Source: Pseudomonadota bacterium
Lineage (GTDB): Bacteria > Pseudomonadota > Alphaproteobacteria > Acetobacterales > Acetobacteraceae
DNA length: 14,914 nt
Assembly (NCBI GenBank): GCA_021829055.1
Contig: JAJZCS010000022.1
Coordinates: forward strand, 1-14,914
Reading direction: 5' to 3'
Under the pieces are notes generated by a model, which saw only the letters and a list, made by a program, of their open reading frames with translations, was not told where the DNA came from and made no database searches. The position numbers were made by a program, and so were the translations under genes. The number at the start of each line of letters is the position of its first letter. Position 1 is the first letter of the stretch. Positions 4,457 to 14,914 of this stretch are shown here, piece after piece.

Positions 4457-5760
4457 TCACGGTGCCGACATCGCCGAGGCGGAGGCCGTGCGACGAGATT
4501 GAGGATCGCGTTTCTGATGGCCGGCATGGTCGGTTGCGGTGGTGGACCCTCGATTCCTTTTTTTCCGCCCCGCTGCCTGGAGGCGGCGGGATTGGAGGAA
4601 GGCGTAGGCGATCATTGTCATCAGGGCATGTCGATGCAACCCGATCCAGGATCGGCCTTCAAAGTGATCGAGGCCACGTTCCTCTCTTGAGTTGCTGGTG
4701 CGCATGTTCACAGACCCACCTGGCTTTTATTGCGGCAGCCAGCGTCCTGACGGCGGTATCGGCGGGCAGATTTTCGACACAGCGTATTTTTGTTCGCCTG
4801 TCGAACGCCGTTCACCACCGAGCCACACCTCCTCGCCAGGCATGCACTGTACGCGATTATCGAGCATTTGATGCTTATGGCCGTCGGCCACCCGAACACG
4901 GCAGACGGCAAAGAGGCATGTCAGCCCACCTTTCGTGCTGTGACGCCAGGTGATCTCTTGCCATTTTTTTCTCGGCCGGCATGAGCTCCGCGGAGATCGG
5001 AGGCCGGTCAGGGACATGGTATCTCCGGTGTTTCCCCGTTTCTGCAACGGGGAATGACAAGGCAATATCGGCTGGAGAGACGTTTGGGCGCCGCGACAGG
5101 CCCACCGCCCACAGCAAGCCACGCTTGCTCAATGCCTGCGGAAAGACCCCCTTGATCCGTATCCTGCATCGGCAGGCACACAACCGAAACGCGCGCCGGA
5201 AGCGATGACACGGTCGATCTCCTCCAGCGCAATTTCAGGCTTTGTCCGTGCGGCCTGTCGATCCTCCGGTACACGGGCCCGCGCCATGCGTTTGGGATCG
5301 ACCCTCCAACTGTCGGACAGAAATACGACCATCACAAGCACCTCGCGCGCGGCCGCAACCGAAACCAGCAACTGACAATGGGCGGTCCTGCCACGTGCAG
5401 AGGCATCTTGCAGCGCAACGCCAACCGAGTGGCGGCCTTTCTTCGGCAATGCGGTGTCGTCGATGATCAACCAGGCATCCTCGCCGCCAACCAGCGCCAT
5501 CGGCTTCAACCAGCAGAGCTGTTCCCAGAGGAGCTGCATCCCAGACACTGCTGCCGATGAAATGGTGAAGCCGGTCATAATTCACAGCCTTGTCACGGAC
5601 CGCCATCGGCCGAACGCTCTTGCGATCGCCAGGGCCAATCAATGCAGCCACATGGGCAGGAACATATCCGCCGGCACGTGCTGTGCCCAGGCACATCCAT
5701 GAACGGCTCAGGCCAGTGCTCAAGCTCGCCCGACCGCCTCTGTCGTTGTGGCGCTGCCAT
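4457..5760 (-). pseudogene. IS701-family transposase, multiply frameshifted
   Basis: A DDE transposase of IS701 type and near-complete length (about 430 codons), broken by at least six frame changes. Reading from ATG 5760: MAAPQRQRRSGELEHW; next frame, AALIGPGDRKSVRPM and LHHFIGSSVWDAAPL; next, AWLIIDDTALPKKGRHSVGV (first catalytic Asp), RTKPEIALEEIDRV and DAGYGS; next, ALSKRGLLWAVGLSRR; next, GEEVWLGGERRSTGEQKY; next, ADTAVRTLAAAIKARWVCEH; last, GLDHFEGRSWIGLHRHALMT and the stop at 4457. Every family block is present in order, so this is recent decay of one intact gene rather than a mosaic. It cannot make an active enzyme. Confidence 0.88.
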
Positions 5761-5833
5761 GAAGAATTTGGCCCAGAGTGCTTCTCTCCATTCGTGAGAA
5801 TGGATCGCACCATCAAAGTCCGGGATCAAACAC
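4457..5833 (-). mobile_element. Remnant IS701-type insertion sequence
   Basis: The element carries the transposase pseudogene and, 73 bp upstream of its ATG, one end beginning GTGTTTGATCCCGGACTTTG (5833 leftward on the minus strand). The same end occurs at 10459 in a second copy with about 93% identity over about 100 bp. The opposite end could not be found between 4200 and 4457, so the low-coordinate boundary is the stop codon, not a proven terminus. The adjoining bases CTAT at 5834-5837 may be the target. Confidence 0.7.
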
Positions 5834-5837
5834 CTAT

Positions 5838-6951: not shown

Positions 6952-7529
6952 TGCTGCTCCATGAATCGAGACTGAGCTTCAGTGGCAAAATGCTGGCGGC
7001 ATGGCAATTCGCAATTACGAATAATTAGCGTTTCCCAGACGCGGTTTTGATGCGGAAACGACAAATAATGTCGACGCCGCCTCTGTGACGCGACTGCCAA
7101 AGCAGGTTGAACATATGGTCGACGATTGGTAACTAGATAAATAGAGGAGGTCACACGTGTCGTTTCGGTGGTCGCAATAACGATCACGCCGTCTCCAGTC
7201 AGGTCACAAAAAAACTACTACACTCGCGCAGATTGGCAGGCCGTCGCTTGCTTGGCTCGGCAAGCGATTAAAAGGCACGAAGGACACGAACACAAGGCGT
7301 CAGCGGAGAGCTGACATTATACAAAATAGGACTCTACCTCGCTGCACTTGCTACGCAGGTGAAATTTTTAGTTTCGCGCAATGTTTCTTATCGATTATTG
7401 GCCCGAGTTCTTCAGTGGGGCTTGACCTTGGCTTTGAAACAGATACGCTAATTTAGAGTAAATATTCATATCTAGTGTATCTGATGGGTTTTTCTGTCGG
7501 ATCTCACGAAATCGGGAGCAAGAATTGTC
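6952..7529. other. Divergent intergenic region between uppP and the YbjQ-PspA operon
   Basis: No convincing gene is present; short frames here have neither family resemblance nor good start signals. It holds two small hairpins: stem TCGCTTGC/GCAAGCGA at 7244-7267 (8 bp, 8-nt loop) and GTCAGC/GCTGAC at 7299-7315 with loop GGAGA. Neither is followed by a T-run. The last 110 bp carry the inverted repeat at 7441-7482 and a possible weak promoter (TTGACC at 7422, GCTAAT at 7447, spacer 19, so doubtful). I see no sigma-54 -24/-12 element of the kind that drives classical pspA. Confidence 0.5.
7441..7482. promoter_or_regulatory. Inverted repeat upstream of the YbjQ-PspA operon
   Basis: AGATACGCTA (7441-7450) and TAGTGTATCT (7473-7482) are inverted copies matching at 9 of 10 positions, with the mismatch a G-U pair in RNA. 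Their centres are 32 bp apart, about three helical turns, and the right arm ends 47 bp before the first start codon. It could be a dimeric operator or a 5' leader hairpin. The repeat is seen directly; its role is inferred. Confidence 0.4.
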
Positions 7530-8366
7530 ATGTCGGTTCCTACTACTGCTGCCGAGGCCCGGCTTTCCCATCAGGCAATTGAGCGACTGCGCGGGTTACG
7601 TTCCGAAGGCAGTCACGAAGGTGTGTTTACTTCAGATTTTTCTGTCAGCGAATTCCTTATGGTCCGAGAAGCTGGGTTTGAGCCCCTCGGTCTTGTTGTA
7701 GGATCCTGCATCTATCATGTGGGTGTGCAGTATACATCCTGGAACCGGAATCAGGAAATGACGGTTCTATCTCAGGCGATGTACCATGCGCGTGAACTTG
7801 CCATGACGAGAATGGAAGAAGAAGCTGGCGCTCTGCACGCTGACGGCATCGTTGGCGTGAGGCTCGAAGTCAAACGGATGGAATGGGATAAAGACATCCT
7901 CGAATTTATGGCGATCGGTACTGCAATCGCGCATTCTGCAGGCCATCCGATGTTTAAAGGGCGGGGAGGGAAGCCCTTTACATCTGATCTGTCGGGCCAG
8001 GATTTGTGGTTACTGCTGCAGTCGGGCTATCGCCCACTAGAGATGGTAATGGGATCGTGCGTCTATCACATGGCCCACCAAGGCGTCATGAAATCGCTTG
8101 GCAATATTGGTCGTAACACTGAGATCGAAGTCTTCACTCAGGCCCTGTATGATGCGCGGGAACTTGCGATGGAAAGAATGCAGCGTGAAGCTCATGAGGC
8201 TGGGGCGGAAGGTGTTGTGGGGGTGCAGTTGCACGAGGGTTCGCACAACTGGCAACCTCACGTGATTGAGTTCTTCGCGATCGGCACGGCAGTAACTCCG
8301 GTTGAGGACGTATCGATCCTCCCCGAAAAACTCGTCCCACAGATCGTTCTGCCCGTTAATGATTAA
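7530..8366 (+). CDS. Tandem YbjQ-like (heavy-metal-binding fold) protein
   Basis: A 278-residue protein made of two YbjQ/DUF74-type units in tandem. Unit 1 (about 33-134) runs from FTSDFSVSEFLMV through VVGSCIYHVGVQ to EFMAIGTAIA. Unit 2 (about 150-255) runs from FTSDLSGQDLWLL through VMGSCVYHMAHQ to EFFAIGTAVT. Both contain ARELAMxRM and a GVVGV-like strand. The Cys-x-Tyr-His motif in each unit is a plausible ligand or active site, but metal binding is only a family label. YbjQ proteins are usually single-domain, about 105 residues, and pentameric, so a fused pair is notable. No signal peptide or membrane segment is seen. It is first in the operon; GGGAG lies 11 nt before the ATG and pspA begins 26 nt after the stop. 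Its function is unknown, with an envelope-stress link inferred from pspA. Confidence 0.85.
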   Translation: MSVPTTAAEARLSHQAIERLRGLRSEGSHEGVFTSDFSVSEFLMVREAGFEPLGLVVGSCIYHVGVQYTSWNRNQEMTVLSQAMYHARELAMTRMEEEAGALHADGIVGVRLEVKRMEWDKDILEFMAIGTAIAHSAGHPMFKGRGGKPFTSDLSGQDLWLLLQSGYRPLEMVMGSCVYHMAHQGVMKSLGNIGRNTEIEVFTQALYDARELAMERMQREAHEAGAEGVVGVQLHEGSHNWQPHVIEFFAIGTAVTPVEDVSILPEKLVPQIVLPVND

Positions 8367-8392
8367 CGGGATTCCATCTTCAGGAGCAGATC

Positions 8393-9124
8393 ATGAGCTT
8401 GATGTCCCGTTTTTCAAACCTTGTTGCCGCAAAAGCCAATAAGTTCCTCGACGCTGCTGACGACCCTGATGCTGACTTGGAACTCTCTTATGAAAAAATG
8501 CTAACGAATCTTCAGGAAACAAAACGTCATTTGGCCGACGTTGTTGCTGAGCAGATCACGCTGGAGCACCAGATCTCCGAACATCAGGCGGCAATAGATC
8601 GCCATGATTCCGATGCGCGTATCGCAATGAAAGCGGGGCGCGAAGATCTTGCGCGCACCGCCCTGGCCGACAAGGCCGCGGAGACACATAAGGTCGCCCC
8701 AATTCAGGCCTCCTGCGAGCATGTTGCGCAACAGGCCGATAAGCTCAAAGAATATGAGAAGAAACTGGAGGAAAGAATTGAGCAGTTCCGGACCGAAAAG
8801 GAGACACTAAAAGCGGAACATGACGCTGCCGGTGCAGAGCTAAAAGCTAACCAGGACCTTGCCGGCATAGGTGACGGTCTCGGTAACGTCGAGGAGACTC
8901 TCCAGCACGCTCGTGACAAGACGCATGCGCTCGCCAGTAAGGCTGAAGCCATGGAACGGATGATTGACGACGGTACAATCGCCAAGCCCTTGGACAATCG
9001 CAGCCAGAGCGAGCACGACATTGAGAAACTGCGTGATCAGTCCGATATCGAGGACGAACTGCGGAAATTGCGGGCGGAAGCATCAAAAGGGACGCAGCCT
9101 AAGCCGCCGTCTTCGCCGTCATGA
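8393..9124 (+). CDS. pspA: PspA/IM30-family phage-shock protein
   Basis: A 243-residue member of the PspA/IM30/Vipp1 family, peripheral proteins that bind and remodel stressed inner membrane as large coiled-coil assemblies of the ESCRT-III type. The N-terminal amphipathic helix MSLMSRFSNLVAAKANKFLD is followed by the DDPDADLELSYEKMLTNLQE family region. A long charged coiled coil spans about 30-200 (for example KLKEYEKKLEERIEQFRTEK). The short disordered tail is rich in Pro, Ser and Lys. AGGAG lies 7 nt before the ATG. Classical partners PspBC and PspF are absent from the window; the neighbours are two YbjQ-like proteins and one unknown. The stop overlaps the next start as ATGA, so coupling is likely. 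The family is certain; the inducing signal is unknown. Confidence 0.92.
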   Translation: MSLMSRFSNLVAAKANKFLDAADDPDADLELSYEKMLTNLQETKRHLADVVAEQITLEHQISEHQAAIDRHDSDARIAMKAGREDLARTALADKAAETHKVAPIQASCEHVAQQADKLKEYEKKLEERIEQFRTEKETLKAEHDAAGAELKANQDLAGIGDGLGNVEETLQHARDKTHALASKAEAMERMIDDGTIAKPLDNRSQSEHDIEKLRDQSDIEDELRKLRAEASKGTQPKPPSSPS

Positions 9125-9516
9125 CCAGTGGTGAGGTGATCGACAGCATGGATTTGCACGCGGCCTTTATGCGCCGCGCAGTCGCTGATCAAGCGGCTTT
9201 CATTGAAGCGCTTGCCGCGCGTCTGGAGCAGGCGCTGCCTGGCCTTGTACGGATCGAGCGAAAGCGGGATGGATTGTTTAGCAAAGTAGCTCATGTTCGT
9301 GCGATTTGTATCGACACTGGTGACACCCAATATGTATTGGAGCAGGATCAGGGCAGCTTGCGTGCTATGTGCACGCACGCCGCCCATGGCGTCATTCTTA
9401 AGCGGGAGACCCTTACCATTCAGCAATTTCTTGACGCATTAAGCAATACTCTTGGCAAGCTGTCCGCGGATGCCGAGGGCGCACATCGTGTGCTGCACGA
9501 TTTTTTGATGTCATAG
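9121..9516 (+). CDS. Conserved-looking protein of unknown function in the pspA operon
   Basis: I do not recognise this 131-residue protein with confidence. It opens with an amphipathic helix (AAFMRRAVADQAAFIEALAA), continues with alternating strands around LPGLVRIERKRDGLFSK, VRAICIDTGDTQYVLEQDQG and HGVILKRETL, and ends in helices (IQQFLDALSNTLGKLSADAE). This suggests a compact alpha/beta fold without signal peptide or membrane segment. The start at 9121 overlaps the pspA stop as ATGA; an internal ATG at 9148 is an alternative. It ends 12 nt before the next gene. The tight placement argues for a job tied to PspA, perhaps as an adaptor. It might belong to the small PspA-associated proteins seen beside pspA in other bacteria, but I cannot confirm that. 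Confidence 0.8.
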   Translation: MTSGEVIDSMDLHAAFMRRAVADQAAFIEALAARLEQALPGLVRIERKRDGLFSKVAHVRAICIDTGDTQYVLEQDQGSLRAMCTHAAHGVILKRETLTIQQFLDALSNTLGKLSADAEGAHRVLHDFLMS

Positions 9517-9528
9517 AGAAGCCAACTC

Positions 9529-10458
9529 GTGTCCTTCAAGGATCTCTTTAAAGGCTTGGCCCGAATGGCTGCTGCTGGGACCGTTAACGATCCAGCAGAA
9601 ATTGCGCGACAGAATGCGCGGAGCTGCGAATGGCAAAACGCATTGCAACACAATGTGGTCCCAGGTTTCGTTTCGGAACGATTGCGTCAAACTGCGGTAG
9701 GCCGATTACCTTGGATTTCTACCGCTTCGCCAGCTGATTTACTGACGCTCCGTACCCACGGCATCACGACACTCGGTATGGTTGCGGGCAACTGTTGGTT
9801 TCACTTCGGTTATTCATGGACGGAAGGGCATCGGGACGGATGGCGTACAGCAATTGCACGTATGCAGCACGAGGCCGCGCTGATGGGGGCGGATGCGGTG
9901 GTGGAAGTGCGATTGAATACGCGGCGGCTCAACGACGGAAGCGACCACGATTCAATGGACTATAGTGCAGTTGGAGTGGCTGTAACGATCGCAGGATTTC
10001 CAAAAGTTCACGCACCTGTCATCGCCACTGTGTCGCAGCTTGAATTTGCCAGATTGTTGGAAGTCGGTATCCTGCCCGTTGGGCTCGCAGTGGGCGCTTG
10101 CTATGAGTGGATGGCTGACCCCTATGGTTGGGCTGATGTGCAACAGGCGTATTTCAACCAGGAACTCGAGGTCCTGGCCGGGTTTCAGAGGCGTGTCCGC
10201 CAGTCAGCTTTGTCTGCAATGACGGACGATGCTCACCGCCAGCAAGGGAGTGGGGTACTCGGCCGCGTCCAGTTCACTGAAATGTTCCGCGAACAAGGCG
10301 GTCAGGATGGGCCGACCCAATATTTGTGTCGCCATATTGCCTTTGGGACCGTGGTCCAACATCGCAGCCATGACCACGTAAGCATAAAGCCGCGCGCAGT
10401 GCTGCTGACAAGGGTGAGCAAGTCAAAATCGCTTGAAGCTTCGGAATCGGTCATCTAG
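9529..10458 (+). CDS. Divergent tandem YbjQ-like protein
   Basis: A 309-residue protein, a distant paralogue of the first gene of the operon. After an N-terminal extension (MSFKDLFKGLARMAAAGTVN...) it carries two YbjQ-like units. Unit 1 is at about 64-154: TLGMVAGNCWFHFGYSW, then ARMQHEAALMGADAVVEVRL and YSAVGVAVTI. Unit 2 is at about 164-277: PVGLAVGACYEWMAD, ending CRHIAFGTVV. The Cys-x-Tyr-His of the first paralogue is altered (NCWFH, ACYEW), so any metal or ligand site has changed or been lost. The start is GTG at 9529 with AGAGAAG upstream; the first ATG is 12 codons in. Its TAG stop coincides with the CTAG target of the adjoining short mobile element, whose duplication left the stop intact. 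Confidence 0.8.
   Translation: MSFKDLFKGLARMAAAGTVNDPAEIARQNARSCEWQNALQHNVVPGFVSERLRQTAVGRLPWISTASPADLLTLRTHGITTLGMVAGNCWFHFGYSWTEGHRDGWRTAIARMQHEAALMGADAVVEVRLNTRRLNDGSDHDSMDYSAVGVAVTIAGFPKVHAPVIATVSQLEFARLLEVGILPVGLAVGACYEWMADPYGWADVQQAYFNQELEVLAGFQRRVRQSALSAMTDDAHRQQGSGVLGRVQFTEMFREQGGQDGPTQYLCRHIAFGTVVQHRSHDHVSIKPRAVLLTRVSKSKSLEASESVI
10455..10458. repeat. Target-site duplication CTAG, left copy
   Basis: CTAG directly precedes the left inverted repeat and recurs at 10748-10751 directly after the right one. It includes the TAG stop of the upstream YbjQ-like gene. Confidence 0.7.
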
Positions 10459-10747
10459 GTGTTTGATCCCGGACTTTGATGGTGCGATCCATTCTCACGC
10501 ATGGAGGGAAGCGCGATGGGCCAAATTCTTCATGGCAGCGCCACAACGACAGCGGCGGTCCGTCGAGCGATACCACCATGCTCGACATGAGCGGCTCGAA
10601 CGTCACCTCAACGACGTCATTGATGCGTCTCATTTGATGAAAGACCCTCAAAGGTCTCACGCTATACGAGTCCATCGTTAAACCCCGGGCAAATGAACCA
10701 GAACAATTCACGCTAAACCCAATCCAGCAAATGCCGAAACTAAACAC
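10459..10747 (+). mobile_element. MITE-like internally deleted IS701-type element
   Basis: A 289-bp element with terminal inverted repeats: left GTGTTTGATCCCGGACTTTG, right GTGTTTAGTTTCGGCATTTG, 17 of 24 positions matching over the first 24 bp. It is flanked by the direct repeat CTAG (10455-10458 and 10748-10751). The first about 110 bp match the transposase-side end of the remnant at 5720-5833 at about 93%, including the transposase ATG (10532) and a few codons. The rest of the transposase is missing, leaving 175 bp that lead to the other end. It cannot move itself but could be mobilised by a full copy elsewhere. Confidence 0.8.
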
Positions 10748-11280: not shown

Positions 11281-11352
11281 AGCACACCCGCTTCTCGCAT
11301 GTTGAGACGATACTCTTGTCAGATCGGCACGAATCAAAAGAGAGGGAAGTTG

Positions 11353-12024
11353 ATGGCGGAGAGGGAACTCCCAGTCATGCTCGCGAGCAACATCCTGGGT
11401 TTCTTCCCCATGGTGGCGTTACGGCCCGTCTTAGCTATGCTTATACGTCGGCTGGAGCGGACGTATCCGCAGTTGTTCGAAGCCCTTGCAGGCCACGAAC
11501 CTTGTGCGATCGGCATAGAACCAACCGATTTGGACTATCGTTTCATTATTCGGTTCGGCGGAAAACCGGCATCACTTCTGCCGGTACCGACGTTCGACGA
11601 GTCTCTGAACGCTCGCGTGAGAGGTGATTTGGCAACCTTGCTAGGATTACTGGATGGTTGTCTCGATAGCGACTCCCTTTTCTTTTCTCGGGATCTTACC
11701 GTTACCGGAGATATGGGAGCCATTGTAAATCTTCGGAATATCATCGAGCGCGAGGCGTTGGACATTTTTGAAGTGGTTGCAAGGATGTTTGGACCCGTAC
11801 GCACTCCCGTTCGGGTTGCCGCTCTGATACTAGAACGTCGGTTGAGGAAAGTAAGACGATACATAATTGGCAAGCATGAGATCTTGCATGCCAGACGGCA
11901 GGAGACGAATTCGTCGACTGCTTATTATGACAAACTGACTGCCGAGTTGCGGGCAACGAATGAGCGAGTGGCCAAGCTTGAAGTGCAAGCCAGACGTCGA
12001 AACCGAATTGCTGGAGTAACATGA
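11353..12024 (+). CDS. ubiT: Anaerobic ubiquinone biosynthesis accessory factor UbiT (SCP2 domain)
   Basis: UbiT is the SCP2-domain lipid carrier of the O2-independent ubiquinone pathway, thought to present the prenylated intermediate to UbiUV. The SCP2-like core covers about residues 20-135; the stretch SLFFSRDLTVTGDMGAIVNL followed by RNIIEREA is the best family match. The frame is open from ATG 11299, but that codon has no ribosome site and lies only 18 bp after the FNR box, so I chose ATG 11353, preceded by AGAGGGAAG. The resulting 223 residues exceed E. coli UbiT (about 174) by a charged helical tail (LRKVRRYIIGKHEILHARRQ and beyond), perhaps a coiled coil. The stop overlaps ubiU as ATGA. 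Identification rests on weak SCP2 similarity plus the decisive ubiUV context. Confidence 0.85.
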   Translation: MAERELPVMLASNILGFFPMVALRPVLAMLIRRLERTYPQLFEALAGHEPCAIGIEPTDLDYRFIIRFGGKPASLLPVPTFDESLNARVRGDLATLLGLLDGCLDSDSLFFSRDLTVTGDMGAIVNLRNIIEREALDIFEVVARMFGPVRTPVRVAALILERRLRKVRRYIIGKHEILHARRQETNSSTAYYDKLTAELRATNERVAKLEVQARRRNRIAGVT

Positions 12025-13016
12025 CGCGTTATCTGGAACTGGTATGCCCTGCAGGAAATCCTGCAGCGCTACGTGTTGCTGTTGATGCTGGTGCCAACAG
12101 CGTCTATTGTGGCTTTCGCGACTGTACCAATGCCCGTAACTATCCCGGTCTAAATTTCGATCGACAGGAACTGCGTGCTGGCATTACGTACGCGCACGCC
12201 CGCGGATGCCGCGTCTTCGTCGCGGTGAATACATTTCCACGTGCGGGCAAAATTGAGACGTGGCATCGCGCAATTGATGACGCGGCTGCGTGCGGTGCTG
12301 ATGCAGTGATACTTGCTGACCTTGGTCTGCTTGATTACGCCATGCGTCAGCATCCAAAACTACGCCGGCATCTCTCGGTGCAAGCCGCAGCCGCCAGTGC
12401 GCTTAGCATCCGCTTCTACATGGAAAAATTTGAGGTAAGTCGCGTCGTTTTGCCGCGCGTGTTGGCCGTACACGAGGTGTCAAATCTTATTGGGCAGACG
12501 GGCGTTGAGGCCGAAGTTTTCGCGTTTGGCAGCCTTGGAACCATGGTCGAAGGGCGTTGCTTTCTGTCATCCTATATGACTGGCCGTTCGCCAAGTAGCG
12601 ACGGTGTCTGTGCTCCCGCTGAATGTGTTTCGTATCGCGAGGAAGGCGGAGGTCTTCTTTCGTGTCTCGGCGACGTTATGATCAACTGCTTCGGAACTGA
12701 CGAGCCAGCGGCCTACCCAACGCCATGTAAAGGGCGATTCCTGGTGCGAGAGCGTCCACGCTATATATTTGAAGAGCCTACAGGGCTCAATGTCATTCCT
12801 CTTTTGTCTGATCTTAAGGCGTCAGGCGTAACAGCACTGAAAATTGAAGGCCGCCAACGCGGGCGTAACTATGTTGCGACTGTTGTCTCTGCGTTTCGCG
12901 GTATCCTCGACGCTCTCGCGGAGGGCAGGGCGCCGGCGGGAACGCCAGATGTATTGCGAACTGTCGCGGAGGGACAGCGTGAAACATTTGGCGCTTACGC
13001 GAAGGGATGGCGATGA
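12021..13016 (+). CDS. ubiU: O2-independent ubiquinone hydroxylase subunit UbiU (U32 family)
   Basis: UbiU and UbiV form a heterodimer, each with a 4Fe-4S cluster, that hydroxylates the ubiquinone ring without oxygen, using prephenate as oxygen donor in E. coli. This 331-residue protein belongs to the peptidase-U32 family: ELVCPAGNPAALRVAVDAGA at the N-terminus, YCGFRDCTNARN, and the signature EVFAFGSLGTMVEGRC. Candidate cluster ligands are Cys180, Cys197, Cys202 and Cys236 (EGRC, GVCAPAEC, TPCKGRF), in the order seen in UbiU. The C-terminal part has SGVTALKIEGRQRG, typical of U32 proteins. It has no signal peptide and is not a true peptidase. ATGA overlaps tie it to ubiT and ubiV, so the three are co-translated. 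Lookalikes RlhA and TrhP are unlikely because of the operon. Confidence 0.93.
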   Translation: MTRYLELVCPAGNPAALRVAVDAGANSVYCGFRDCTNARNYPGLNFDRQELRAGITYAHARGCRVFVAVNTFPRAGKIETWHRAIDDAAACGADAVILADLGLLDYAMRQHPKLRRHLSVQAAAASALSIRFYMEKFEVSRVVLPRVLAVHEVSNLIGQTGVEAEVFAFGSLGTMVEGRCFLSSYMTGRSPSSDGVCAPAECVSYREEGGGLLSCLGDVMINCFGTDEPAAYPTPCKGRFLVRERPRYIFEEPTGLNVIPLLSDLKASGVTALKIEGRQRGRNYVATVVSAFRGILDALAEGRAPAGTPDVLRTVAEGQRETFGAYAKGWR

Positions 13017-13912
13017 GTAAACTTACGTTAGGACCAGTACAGTTTCATTGGTCTGCTGCACAACGCCTAGATTTTTATGCGCGAATGGCTGACGAATCGC
13101 CAATCAGCTGTGCCTACCTCGGCGAGGTAGTGTGCAGCAAGCGTCTCCCGTGGTTCGAGAAAGATCTGACGATCATAGCAGAGCGCCTGCAGCGAGCTGG
13201 AAAACAGGTCGTGTTTTCGACGCCGGCGTTGATCACGACAGACCGTGAAGTGTCTATGATTGCGTCGATCTGCCACGCGGTAGAGCTGATCGAAGTCAAT
13301 GACATCGCCTGCATATCTCTTCTGAACGGGAAAGAATTCGTTTCCGGCCCGTTAATAAACGCGTTTAATGAGGGCACGCTTGACGTGCTTATCGGAATGG
13401 GCGCGGTGCGAATCAATGCTCCAATCGAACTGTCTGCGTCAGCAATTATAACATTGGCTTCAAAAAGTAAAATTGAAATAGAGGTTTTTGCATTTGGGCG
13501 CCAACCGCTTGCGATTTCGCAGAGGTGTTATCATGCGCGTGCCCATGACTTACACAAGGATAATTGTCAATTCGTGTGCGGTGAAGATTTGGACGGCATG
13601 GAAATAGCCCAGCTCAACGGACGCCCGCTACTAACGATTAACGGTACGCAGACGCTGTCATATGGGCATGTGACGCTTCTAAGTGATCTTGCCAACCTCC
13701 AAGCTAACGGAGTAACACATTTTCGTCTGTCACCACACGCGCTTGATATGGTTGAAATCGCATCAGTGTATCGTGCAGTACTTGATGGCGCTCTTGATGC
13801 CGAAGAAGGACTTGTAAAACTGCGCAAAAGTACAGCGCCCATTCCCTTTATCAACGGCTATTTACATGGACGCGCTGGTATGGAGTGGTTAACGAATCCC
13901 ACAAACGAGTAG
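13013..13912 (+). CDS. ubiV: O2-independent ubiquinone hydroxylase subunit UbiV (U32 family)
   Basis: UbiV is the partner of UbiU in O2-independent ring hydroxylation. Counting from ATG 13013 the protein has 299 residues. The four Cys expected for its 4Fe-4S cluster are present: Cys41 in YLGEVVCSKR, and Cys172, Cys185 and Cys189 in a C-x12-C-x3-C array (QRCYHARAH, DNCQFVC), matching E. coli UbiV spacing. VFAFGRQPLAISQRC is the UbiV form of the U32 signature. I prefer 13013 over an ATG at 13007 because it makes the ATGA overlap with ubiU and puts AAGGG 6 nt upstream, whereas AAGGG would touch the earlier ATG. Another gene in the same direction begins 58 bp after the stop. Confidence 0.94.
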   Translation: MSKLTLGPVQFHWSAAQRLDFYARMADESPISCAYLGEVVCSKRLPWFEKDLTIIAERLQRAGKQVVFSTPALITTDREVSMIASICHAVELIEVNDIACISLLNGKEFVSGPLINAFNEGTLDVLIGMGAVRINAPIELSASAIITLASKSKIEIEVFAFGRQPLAISQRCYHARAHDLHKDNCQFVCGEDLDGMEIAQLNGRPLLTINGTQTLSYGHVTLLSDLANLQANGVTHFRLSPHALDMVEIASVYRAVLDGALDAEEGLVKLRKSTAPIPFINGYLHGRAGMEWLTNPTNE

Positions 13913-13970: not shown

Positions 13971-14914
13971 ATGGAATCCAGCGAAACTGTTGCCATAAAG
14001 TCCTACCGGCAGAATCCGGGGGGAGGGGAACATTTTATCGTTGTGGATCCACCTTATGGACTCTCAATTGAAGAGCAAATTGCCTACGTTGAAGAACGCT
14101 ATGATGAGGCACAGCGAGAACTTAGCTTACCTCATGGCAGTGCAATTTTTCGCCGTCTGTTCGTCAGTGATATTGTAAACCAGAGCGCTCTTCTAGAGCG
14201 CAGCACGCTGTTTTCTGATAAAGACGGGTCTCCTGTCGCGATTTCTTTTATCGAGCAGCAGCCATTGTCACAAGCAAAGCTTTCGCTCCTCGCATATCAT
14301 GTCAGTGATCCGTTAGGCGTTTCTAAGAGAAGGCTGACGCCTCATCACGTGGTCGTCGAAAAGAAGGGAGTTTCGCACCTCTGGACAACAGGAATATGTG
14401 CATCAGCAGACGAAAAACCGAGTCCCGTATCTCAGCAAACGCGCGAGTTGTTCCGTGATGTTGTCGGGACACTTGATTGTCTTGGTGGGAATCTGCTGAA
14501 TAATTGCGTTCGTACTTGGATCTACGTTAAAGATGTAGATGTATTTTATAACGACATGGTAACAAGCAGGCGAGAACTGTTTCTTCAAGAAGGATTGTCT
14601 GCGGAGACGCATTTTATTGCGAGTACGGGAATTGAGGGGGCGTGTGCACACCGGTTCGATATGGTGACGATGGATGCATATTCGATCCTAGGTCTGTTAC
14701 CTAAGCAAATTTCGTATCTAAATGACTTTAATTATCTTTGCCAGGCCAATGACTATAACGTGACGTTTGAACGTGCCACACGAATCAGCTATTCTGATCG
14801 TGCTCACCTATTTGTTTCGGGAACCGCGAGCATTGATAACGCCGGTAGGGTGGTTCATGTGGGAGATGTCTTGCGACAGTTTGATCGAACAATCGAAAAT
14901 GTGTTACTCCGTTA
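13971..14914 (+). CDS. Multi-domain Rid/YjgF-superfamily protein, cut by window edge
   Basis: The frame is open from ATG 13971 to the right edge (314 codons), with GGAG about 8 nt upstream. Three Rid-like units can be traced. Unit 1 (about 20-112) has FRRLFVSDIVNQSALLER and QPLSQAKLSLLAYHV. Unit 2 (about 128-242) has HLWTTGIC, CVRTWIYVKDVDVFYNDM and ETHFIASTGIEG. Unit 3 begins at about 258 (RAHLFVSGTASIDNAGRVVH, GDVLRQF) and continues off the window. Proteins of this architecture, about 380 residues, occur in other phyla and are labelled Rid family or endoribonuclease L-PSP; FkbO/Hyg5/XanB2 chorismatases share the ISGTAS...GD...Q pattern. Its place 58 bp after ubiV suggests the same transcript. 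A role on chorismate or a reactive imine is inference only. Confidence 0.8.
   Translation, partial: MESSETVAIKSYRQNPGGGEHFIVVDPPYGLSIEEQIAYVEERYDEAQRELSLPHGSAIFRRLFVSDIVNQSALLERSTLFSDKDGSPVAISFIEQQPLSQAKLSLLAYHVSDPLGVSKRRLTPHHVVVEKKGVSHLWTTGICASADEKPSPVSQQTRELFRDVVGTLDCLGGNLLNNCVRTWIYVKDVDVFYNDMVTSRRELFLQEGLSAETHFIASTGIEGACAHRFDMVTMDAYSILGLLPKQISYLNDFNYLCQANDYNVTFERATRISYSDRAHLFVSGTASIDNAGRVVHVGDVLRQFDRTIENVLLR

Follow-up and report, generated by a model that had tools for sequence, protein, structure and literature searches.

A four-gene cluster at positions 7530–10458 of the 14,914-nucleotide stretch analysed here (the window; contig JAJZCS010000022.1 of the Pseudomonadota assembly GCA_021829055.1) is a discrete, conserved module. 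It combines a gene of the PspA/IM30 family with genes for two double YbjQ-like proteins (Y1 and Y4) and for an uncharacterised small protein (X). At related loci TelA takes the place of PspA. X–Y4–Y1 is therefore the apparent core of the module, with which either PspA or TelA is combined. Our preferred reading, to which we assign a probability of about one half, is that a cytosolic X–YbjQ core places PspA or TelA at sites of inner-membrane damage, where the main threat countered in acidophiles would be proton leak.

A conserved four-gene module

The window carries the four genes in the order Y1–PspA–X–Y4, all on the forward strand. Y1 (7530..8366, 278 amino acids) passes the 23-bit cut-off of the Pfam YbjQ profile (YbjQ_1, PF01906) with 81.4 bits in two stretches. 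The divergent Y4 (9529..10458, 309 amino acids, GTG start) passes it through its first half (34.7 bits); its second domain is predicted to have the YbjQ fold too, giving two YbjQ-like units in the structure model. The PspA protein (8393..9124, 243 amino acids) scores 78.9 bits against the curated PspA/IM30 cut-off (PF04012) of 33.9 bits, and X (9121..9516, 131 amino acids) represents a new, uncharacterised family. The Pfam matches and the predicted fold of Y4 thus bear out the gene assignments of the original prediction, which had described two double YbjQ proteins, a PspA and an unknown protein.

Scanning an alignment of X against one genome per species (GTDB 220) gave 43 loci. These are from Acidithiobacillus (10), Acidiphilium (5), Thiomonas (4), Alicyclobacillus (2), Planctomycetota (2), Burkholderiales/Burkholderiaceae metagenome-assembled genomes (MAGs; 2), Proteobacteria with no finer title (12), and one each from Igneacidithiobacillus, Lichenifustis, Caulobacter, Beijerinckia, Actinomycetes and Alphaproteobacteria. 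The complete four-gene set is present at 39 of the 43, in three phyla, counting a contig-cut Y1 (L013), a contig-cut PspA (L031) and a Y4 in two frames (L039). Three of the incomplete loci are cut by contig ends (L045, L047, L052) and the fourth, from Actinomycetes (L054), has X and Y1 only. Open reading frames of at least 90 amino acids from 42 X loci (L013 excluded) and the window were also clustered (blastp E 1e-12, 60% coverage). X, Y1/Y4 and PspA were the families common to at least three lineage bins, along with frames that, judging by the members listed, overlie module genes in other reading frames; no other flanking family was common to three bins in these loci. The 39 complete sets, together with the absence of any other such family, identify the four genes as a conserved unit. 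The gene set therefore recurs across phyla as the dedicated module first proposed, well beyond a few strains.

Both families are widespread, with PspA in 9 and YbjQ in 10 of 14 control genomes, and common genes of this kind might come to lie side by side without any joint function. Such a chance cluster is very improbable given that the same set stands at 39 of the 43 loci and spans three phyla, with no other neighbour found conserved, and for the gene association itself the 39 complete loci reject it. Literature searches found no earlier description of the layout, as had been supposed, nor of any operon joining YbjQ with PspA or TelA in the open-licence literature. The terms YbjQ, UPF0145, DUF74, heavy metal and metal-binding do not appear in the main text of the two main Psp surveys (PMC11237479, PMC9239133).

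Rotated gene orders

The prevailing order is X–Y4–Y1–PspA, found at 32 of the 39 complete loci (including L039, where Y1 was placed between Y4 and PspA). The window order, Y1–PspA–X–Y4, occurs at the other seven (L013–L019). Five of these are titled Acidiphilium and two Proteobacteria (L013, L018), but Y4 of L013 matches that of the window with 652 bits (at most 273 at loci elsewhere) and Y1 of L018 with 566 bits (at most 490), so that by sequence similarity all seven appear to belong to, or group with, Acidiphilium. The suggestion that the YbjQ pairs bracketing pspA are a structural clue is not supported by this comparison, since the bracket is one rotation of a more common order.

A further 21 stretches were examined, some from genomes already counted (L121 is the contig of L047). 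Sixteen have X–Y4–Y1–PspA, with a poor PspA match in L113 and L114 (58.9 and 69.4 bits), and two from Acidithiobacillaceae have Y4–Y1–PspA–X (L116, L117). The rest comprise a contig-cut stretch (L121), a second copy with Y4–Y1 only (L108) and an expanded operon (L106:1481-7554) that reads X, a triple YbjQ protein, an M48 peptidase, two copies of Y4 that are 63% identical, Y1 and PspA. The triple YbjQ protein of this operon has a hydrophobic carboxy terminus, and the peptidase also contains a hydrophobic segment.

The PspA type shows three complete linear arrangements of the four genes, each a rotation of the other two, which suggests a conserved cyclic gene order. Rotations make up 4 of the 24 possible orders, or 3 of the 10 outcomes of a single block move, and with few independent events the pattern is suggestive but does not amount to proof. 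Duplication within the operon does occur, as the two adjacent Y4 copies of L106 show, and with subsequent loss it would yield rotations. The cyclic order fits repeated tandem duplication and loss, or transfer via a circular intermediate.

TelA in place of PspA

TelA–X–Y4–Y1 is found in seven genomes: two of Acidiphilium (G002, G006), four others of the same family (G625, G572, G507, G619) and one of the same class (G205). An eighth genome with TelA instead of PspA (G612) has X–Y4–Y1–TelA. The assignment is supported in G006 by a Pfam score of 73.2 bits (PF05816, cut-off 30). No TelA was found in the PspA-type loci L013–L055 or L106–L126, nor a PspA in the TelA-type stretches, so the two never occur together at any locus examined. 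The TelA-containing operons resemble the window module in encoding relatives of X, Y4 and Y1 beside TelA, and differ from it in the absence of PspA. Comparison of the window PspA with a TelA gave no credible sequence similarity.

A Streptomyces plasmid (L087:5118-7219) carries Y–Y1–X, in which X accompanies two YbjQ proteins; no PspA or TelA was identified there. This arrangement and the exchange of TelA for PspA point to a core consisting of X with double YbjQ proteins, for which PspA or TelA would be the partner. A membrane task shared by PspA and TelA gains some support from a paper on Listeria, which connects the Psp response with the ability to tolerate a membrane-active bacteriocin and cites a link between TelA and nisin resistance (PMC12791056). 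X-like and Y1-like genes are also adjacent on a conjugative plasmid of the cyanobacterium Aulosira laxa (L088:5562-6393).

Relation to classical PspA and other known systems

The window PspA is 40–76% identical to the other 18 module PspA proteins compared, and only 22–25% identical to Escherichia coli PspA and the pspF-linked PspA proteins of Acidiphilium. A branch with 100/100 support, in a tree that carries a long-branch warning, splits module PspA from classical PspA. The PspA of the module is thus a subfamily well apart from the classical, pspF-linked type. The clade of the module PspA also holds two Acidithiobacillus PspA proteins from outside the module (L083 and L084). In Acidithiobacillus ferriphilus, the source of the latter, this second PspA gene has a 67-residue YbjQ-like gene after it, away from the module (L084:2196-3217).

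Additional PspA genes (E 0.001) are present in 8 of 14 module genomes (G687, G688, G691, G692, G694, G695, G696 and G698); one of the matches is under the family cut-off, and G694 has four. In the three Acidiphilium genomes inspected, the second PspA gene is divergent from a PspF-like gene, PspF having been recognised by eye. No PspF was found in the window, where every open reading frame of more than 250 amino acids was assigned to something else, and PspC (PF04024) has no match in the source genome, which is 78.5% complete. The module and the classical PspF-PspABC system of E. coli share a PspA/IM30 protein and a probable role in membrane protection. The module differs in its distant PspA, in lacking PspF in the window and in having no sigma-54 site above chance (see below), in agreement with the view that this is a non-classical Psp operon.

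Another system of some likeness is the E. coli yjfIJKLMC operon, in which a PspA paralogue (YjfJ) lies beside an uncharacterised protein of about 130 residues (YjfI, DUF2170). However, YjfJ and the window PspA share 15% identity, the X profiles do not match YjfI, and YbjQ is absent among the annotated genes of that stretch. Profile comparison of X with DUF2170 found no similarity, with an hhalign probability of 0.1 and hmmsearch scores of -1.1 to 0.2 bits. Solo YbjQ/UPF0145/DUF74 proteins (1y2i, 1vr4, 3qkb) share the domain and predicted fold of Y1 and Y4, from which they differ in that Y1 and Y4 have double domains and Y1 has three invariant residues described below. The envelope-stress lipoprotein RcsF is also counted among the closest known systems.

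Features of X, Y1 and Y4

X is predicted to fold as two helices, five strands and a long helix (model pLDDT, or predicted local distance difference test, 81.9), and X has no match in the PDB at E<=0.001. Sequence searches at this E-value find 58 relatives with the window X as query and 744 with a TelA-type X. The Y1 family has at least 7997 members (1e-20; 7997 of 8000 candidates scored), some with Dyella and Stellaceae names, and an ordinary single YbjQ is encoded on another contig of the source genome. In an alignment of the window Y1 with its best 119 listed matches and seven more distant ones, C177, H180 and H244 are invariant in all 127 sequences, most of them close relatives, and H63 is kept in 126. 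The three invariant residues are a possible metal or ligand site.

This site is the starting point for a different explanation, in which the operon is a metal or oxyanion stress module: Cys and His residues of Y1 and Y4 would bind a metal or ligand, PspA or TelA would protect, and the acidophile link would reflect metal-rich mine water. Pfam describes the YbjQ domain as putative heavy-metal-binding, and TelA is named after toxic anion resistance. The Pfam name is only putative, however, and the PspA type also occurs in Lichenifustis, in Caulobacter sp. S45 (a lichen MAG) and in Beijerinckia sp. L45; lichens are acidic but not metal-rich. In addition, no flanking gene, and hence no metal transporter or regulator, was found to be common to three or more bins. 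We consider the metal explanation rather unlikely.

Hydropathy predicts no transmembrane segment in Y1, PspA, X or Y4 (highest 19-residue mean 1.69, compared with 2.32 for the UppP control), and a peripheral cytosolic complex is therefore likely.

Promoter and surroundings of the operon

The window contains four matches to a sigma-54 site where 9.5 are expected, none of them on the plus strand of the operon; the sole match within the operon is on the opposite strand (9442-9457). A sigma-70-like promoter candidate, CTTGACC-N16-TACGCT, lies at 7421..7449 on the plus strand, 80 bases 5' of Y1. The corresponding pattern CTTGACC-N16-TASGNT, which was written after inspecting the alignment, has one match in the window and none in 200 shuffles. 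It was found in 11 of 126 fetched loci, in each case 5' of Y1 in Acidiphilium-type loci: L014, L015, L017, L018, L019, L066 (the L017 contig again) and five loci overlapping the window. This amounts to six of eight distinct Acidiphilium-type upstream regions. A general sigma-70 scan did not list the motif because that scan demands more matches in the second hexamer.

A 113-base inverted repeat with arms 93% complementary (5724-5836 and 10456-10568) encloses uppP and the module. Its left copy adjoins transposase pieces (DDE_5, in two frames, 5129-5816), and its right copy starts at the last codon of Y4. Genes for UbiT, UbiU and UbiV, of oxygen-independent ubiquinone synthesis, lie 3' of the module region (11299-13912, plus strand), outside the conserved module. 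A 26-base inverted repeat (13705-13730 and 14889-14914) has its second arm at the extreme contig end and may be an assembly artefact.

Distribution and proposed function

Family surveys at set E-values found Y1 in 26 of 29 genomes of Acidithiobacillaceae and in 13 of 41 of the Alicyclobacillus family. Six of the eight positive genomes among 299 Bacilli are from the latter family, and both positives among 200 genomes of the Thiomonas family are Thiomonas. Y1 was also found in 9 of 249 genomes of the window's own family, in 2 of 385 of its class with a TelA-type Y1 as query (the window and G898), and in 2 of 398 Pseudomonadota, one being the window. A search with X matched 10 of 12 further genomes in the genus of the window, two of them weakly (TelA type), and none of 87 other genera sampled. 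We take Acidithiobacillus, Acidiphilium, Thiomonas and Alicyclobacillus to be acidophiles or dwellers in acid water.

In the Y1 tree, built by a quick method and subject to long-branch warnings, the PspA-type copies of Acidiphilium fall with those of Acidithiobacillus, Thiomonas and Planctomycetota (support 97), and the TelA-type copies from Acidiphilium itself lie separately (support 100). A Planctomycetota Y1 (L020) is 76% identical to that of the window. Horizontal transfer is the likely reason for this mixing of phyla. Transfer among bacteria that share a habitat could by itself explain the distribution, and X–Y4–Y1 would then be a regulatory or assembly device for PspA or TelA under general envelope damage (peptides, solvents, desiccation), with low pH not the selected stress. 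TelA-type modules in other Alphaproteobacteria, such as G205, agree with this account. The retention of Y1 in 26 of 29 Acidithiobacillaceae resembles a retained need more than a passing transfer, and we regard the general-damage explanation as rather improbable.

Under our preferred reading, the four genes would be transcribed from a housekeeping-type promoter, with control at the level of assembly instead of through sigma-54. We propose that Y1 and Y4 assemble against the inner membrane on its cytosolic side, to act as scaffold or sensor. Since single YbjQ proteins form rings, this assembly may be a mixed ring. X would be the adaptor between this YbjQ scaffold and the coiled-coil partner. Together, the three proteins may act at sites of membrane damage by recruiting the coat-forming partner, nucleating it or releasing it, while the membrane work itself would be done by PspA, as an ESCRT-III-like membrane coat, or by TelA. 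X, Y1 and Y4 would thus replace PspF, PspB and PspC. Because acidophiles are threatened above all by proton leak, owing to the pH gradient, the benefit to them is probably a proton-tight membrane that holds the proton gradient. Earlier work describes the maintenance of proton-motive force by Psp (PMC3068692).

Several observations weigh against the positioning of a coat protein in defence against acid. The Y1 family is large and extends well beyond acidophiles, with TelA-type, Streptomyces and cyanobacterial forms, and Y1 is missing from 28 of the 41 Alicyclobacillus-family genomes. The surveys counted single genes and not whole modules. The acid role is drawn from distribution, and acid mine sites are rich in metals too. 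PspA or TelA was identified neither with the Streptomyces Y–Y1–X (L087) nor with X–Y1 of the Actinomycetes MAG (L054), which suggests that the core may not need a coat protein in order to act. Finally, the promoter motif is absent 5' of Y1 in L016 and L065, even with two mismatches allowed.

More tentatively, and with the odds somewhat against it, the whole may be read as a cassette: X–Y4–Y1 as an undescribed modular platform that fits PspA or TelA, two unrelated coat-like proteins, into the inner membrane, spread across acidophiles from several phyla as a safeguard of the pH gradient and conserved in a cyclic order, of which X–Y4–Y1–PspA, Y4–Y1–PspA–X, Y1–PspA–X–Y4 and TelA–X–Y4–Y1 would be rotations.

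Implications

It is still an open question how extreme acidophiles exclude protons when the pH gradient is very large, and there is debate about the role of PspA in membrane sealing. The module, with Y1 in nearly all Acidithiobacillaceae examined and with occurrences in unrelated bacteria that live in acid, offers a concrete candidate for acidophile proton exclusion that can be tested. To our knowledge the mechanism of TelA is not known, and the exchange of PspA and TelA offers a handle on it. We likewise know of no established function for the YbjQ family, to which the module gives a functional context. The rotated gene orders are of interest for the evolution of operons.

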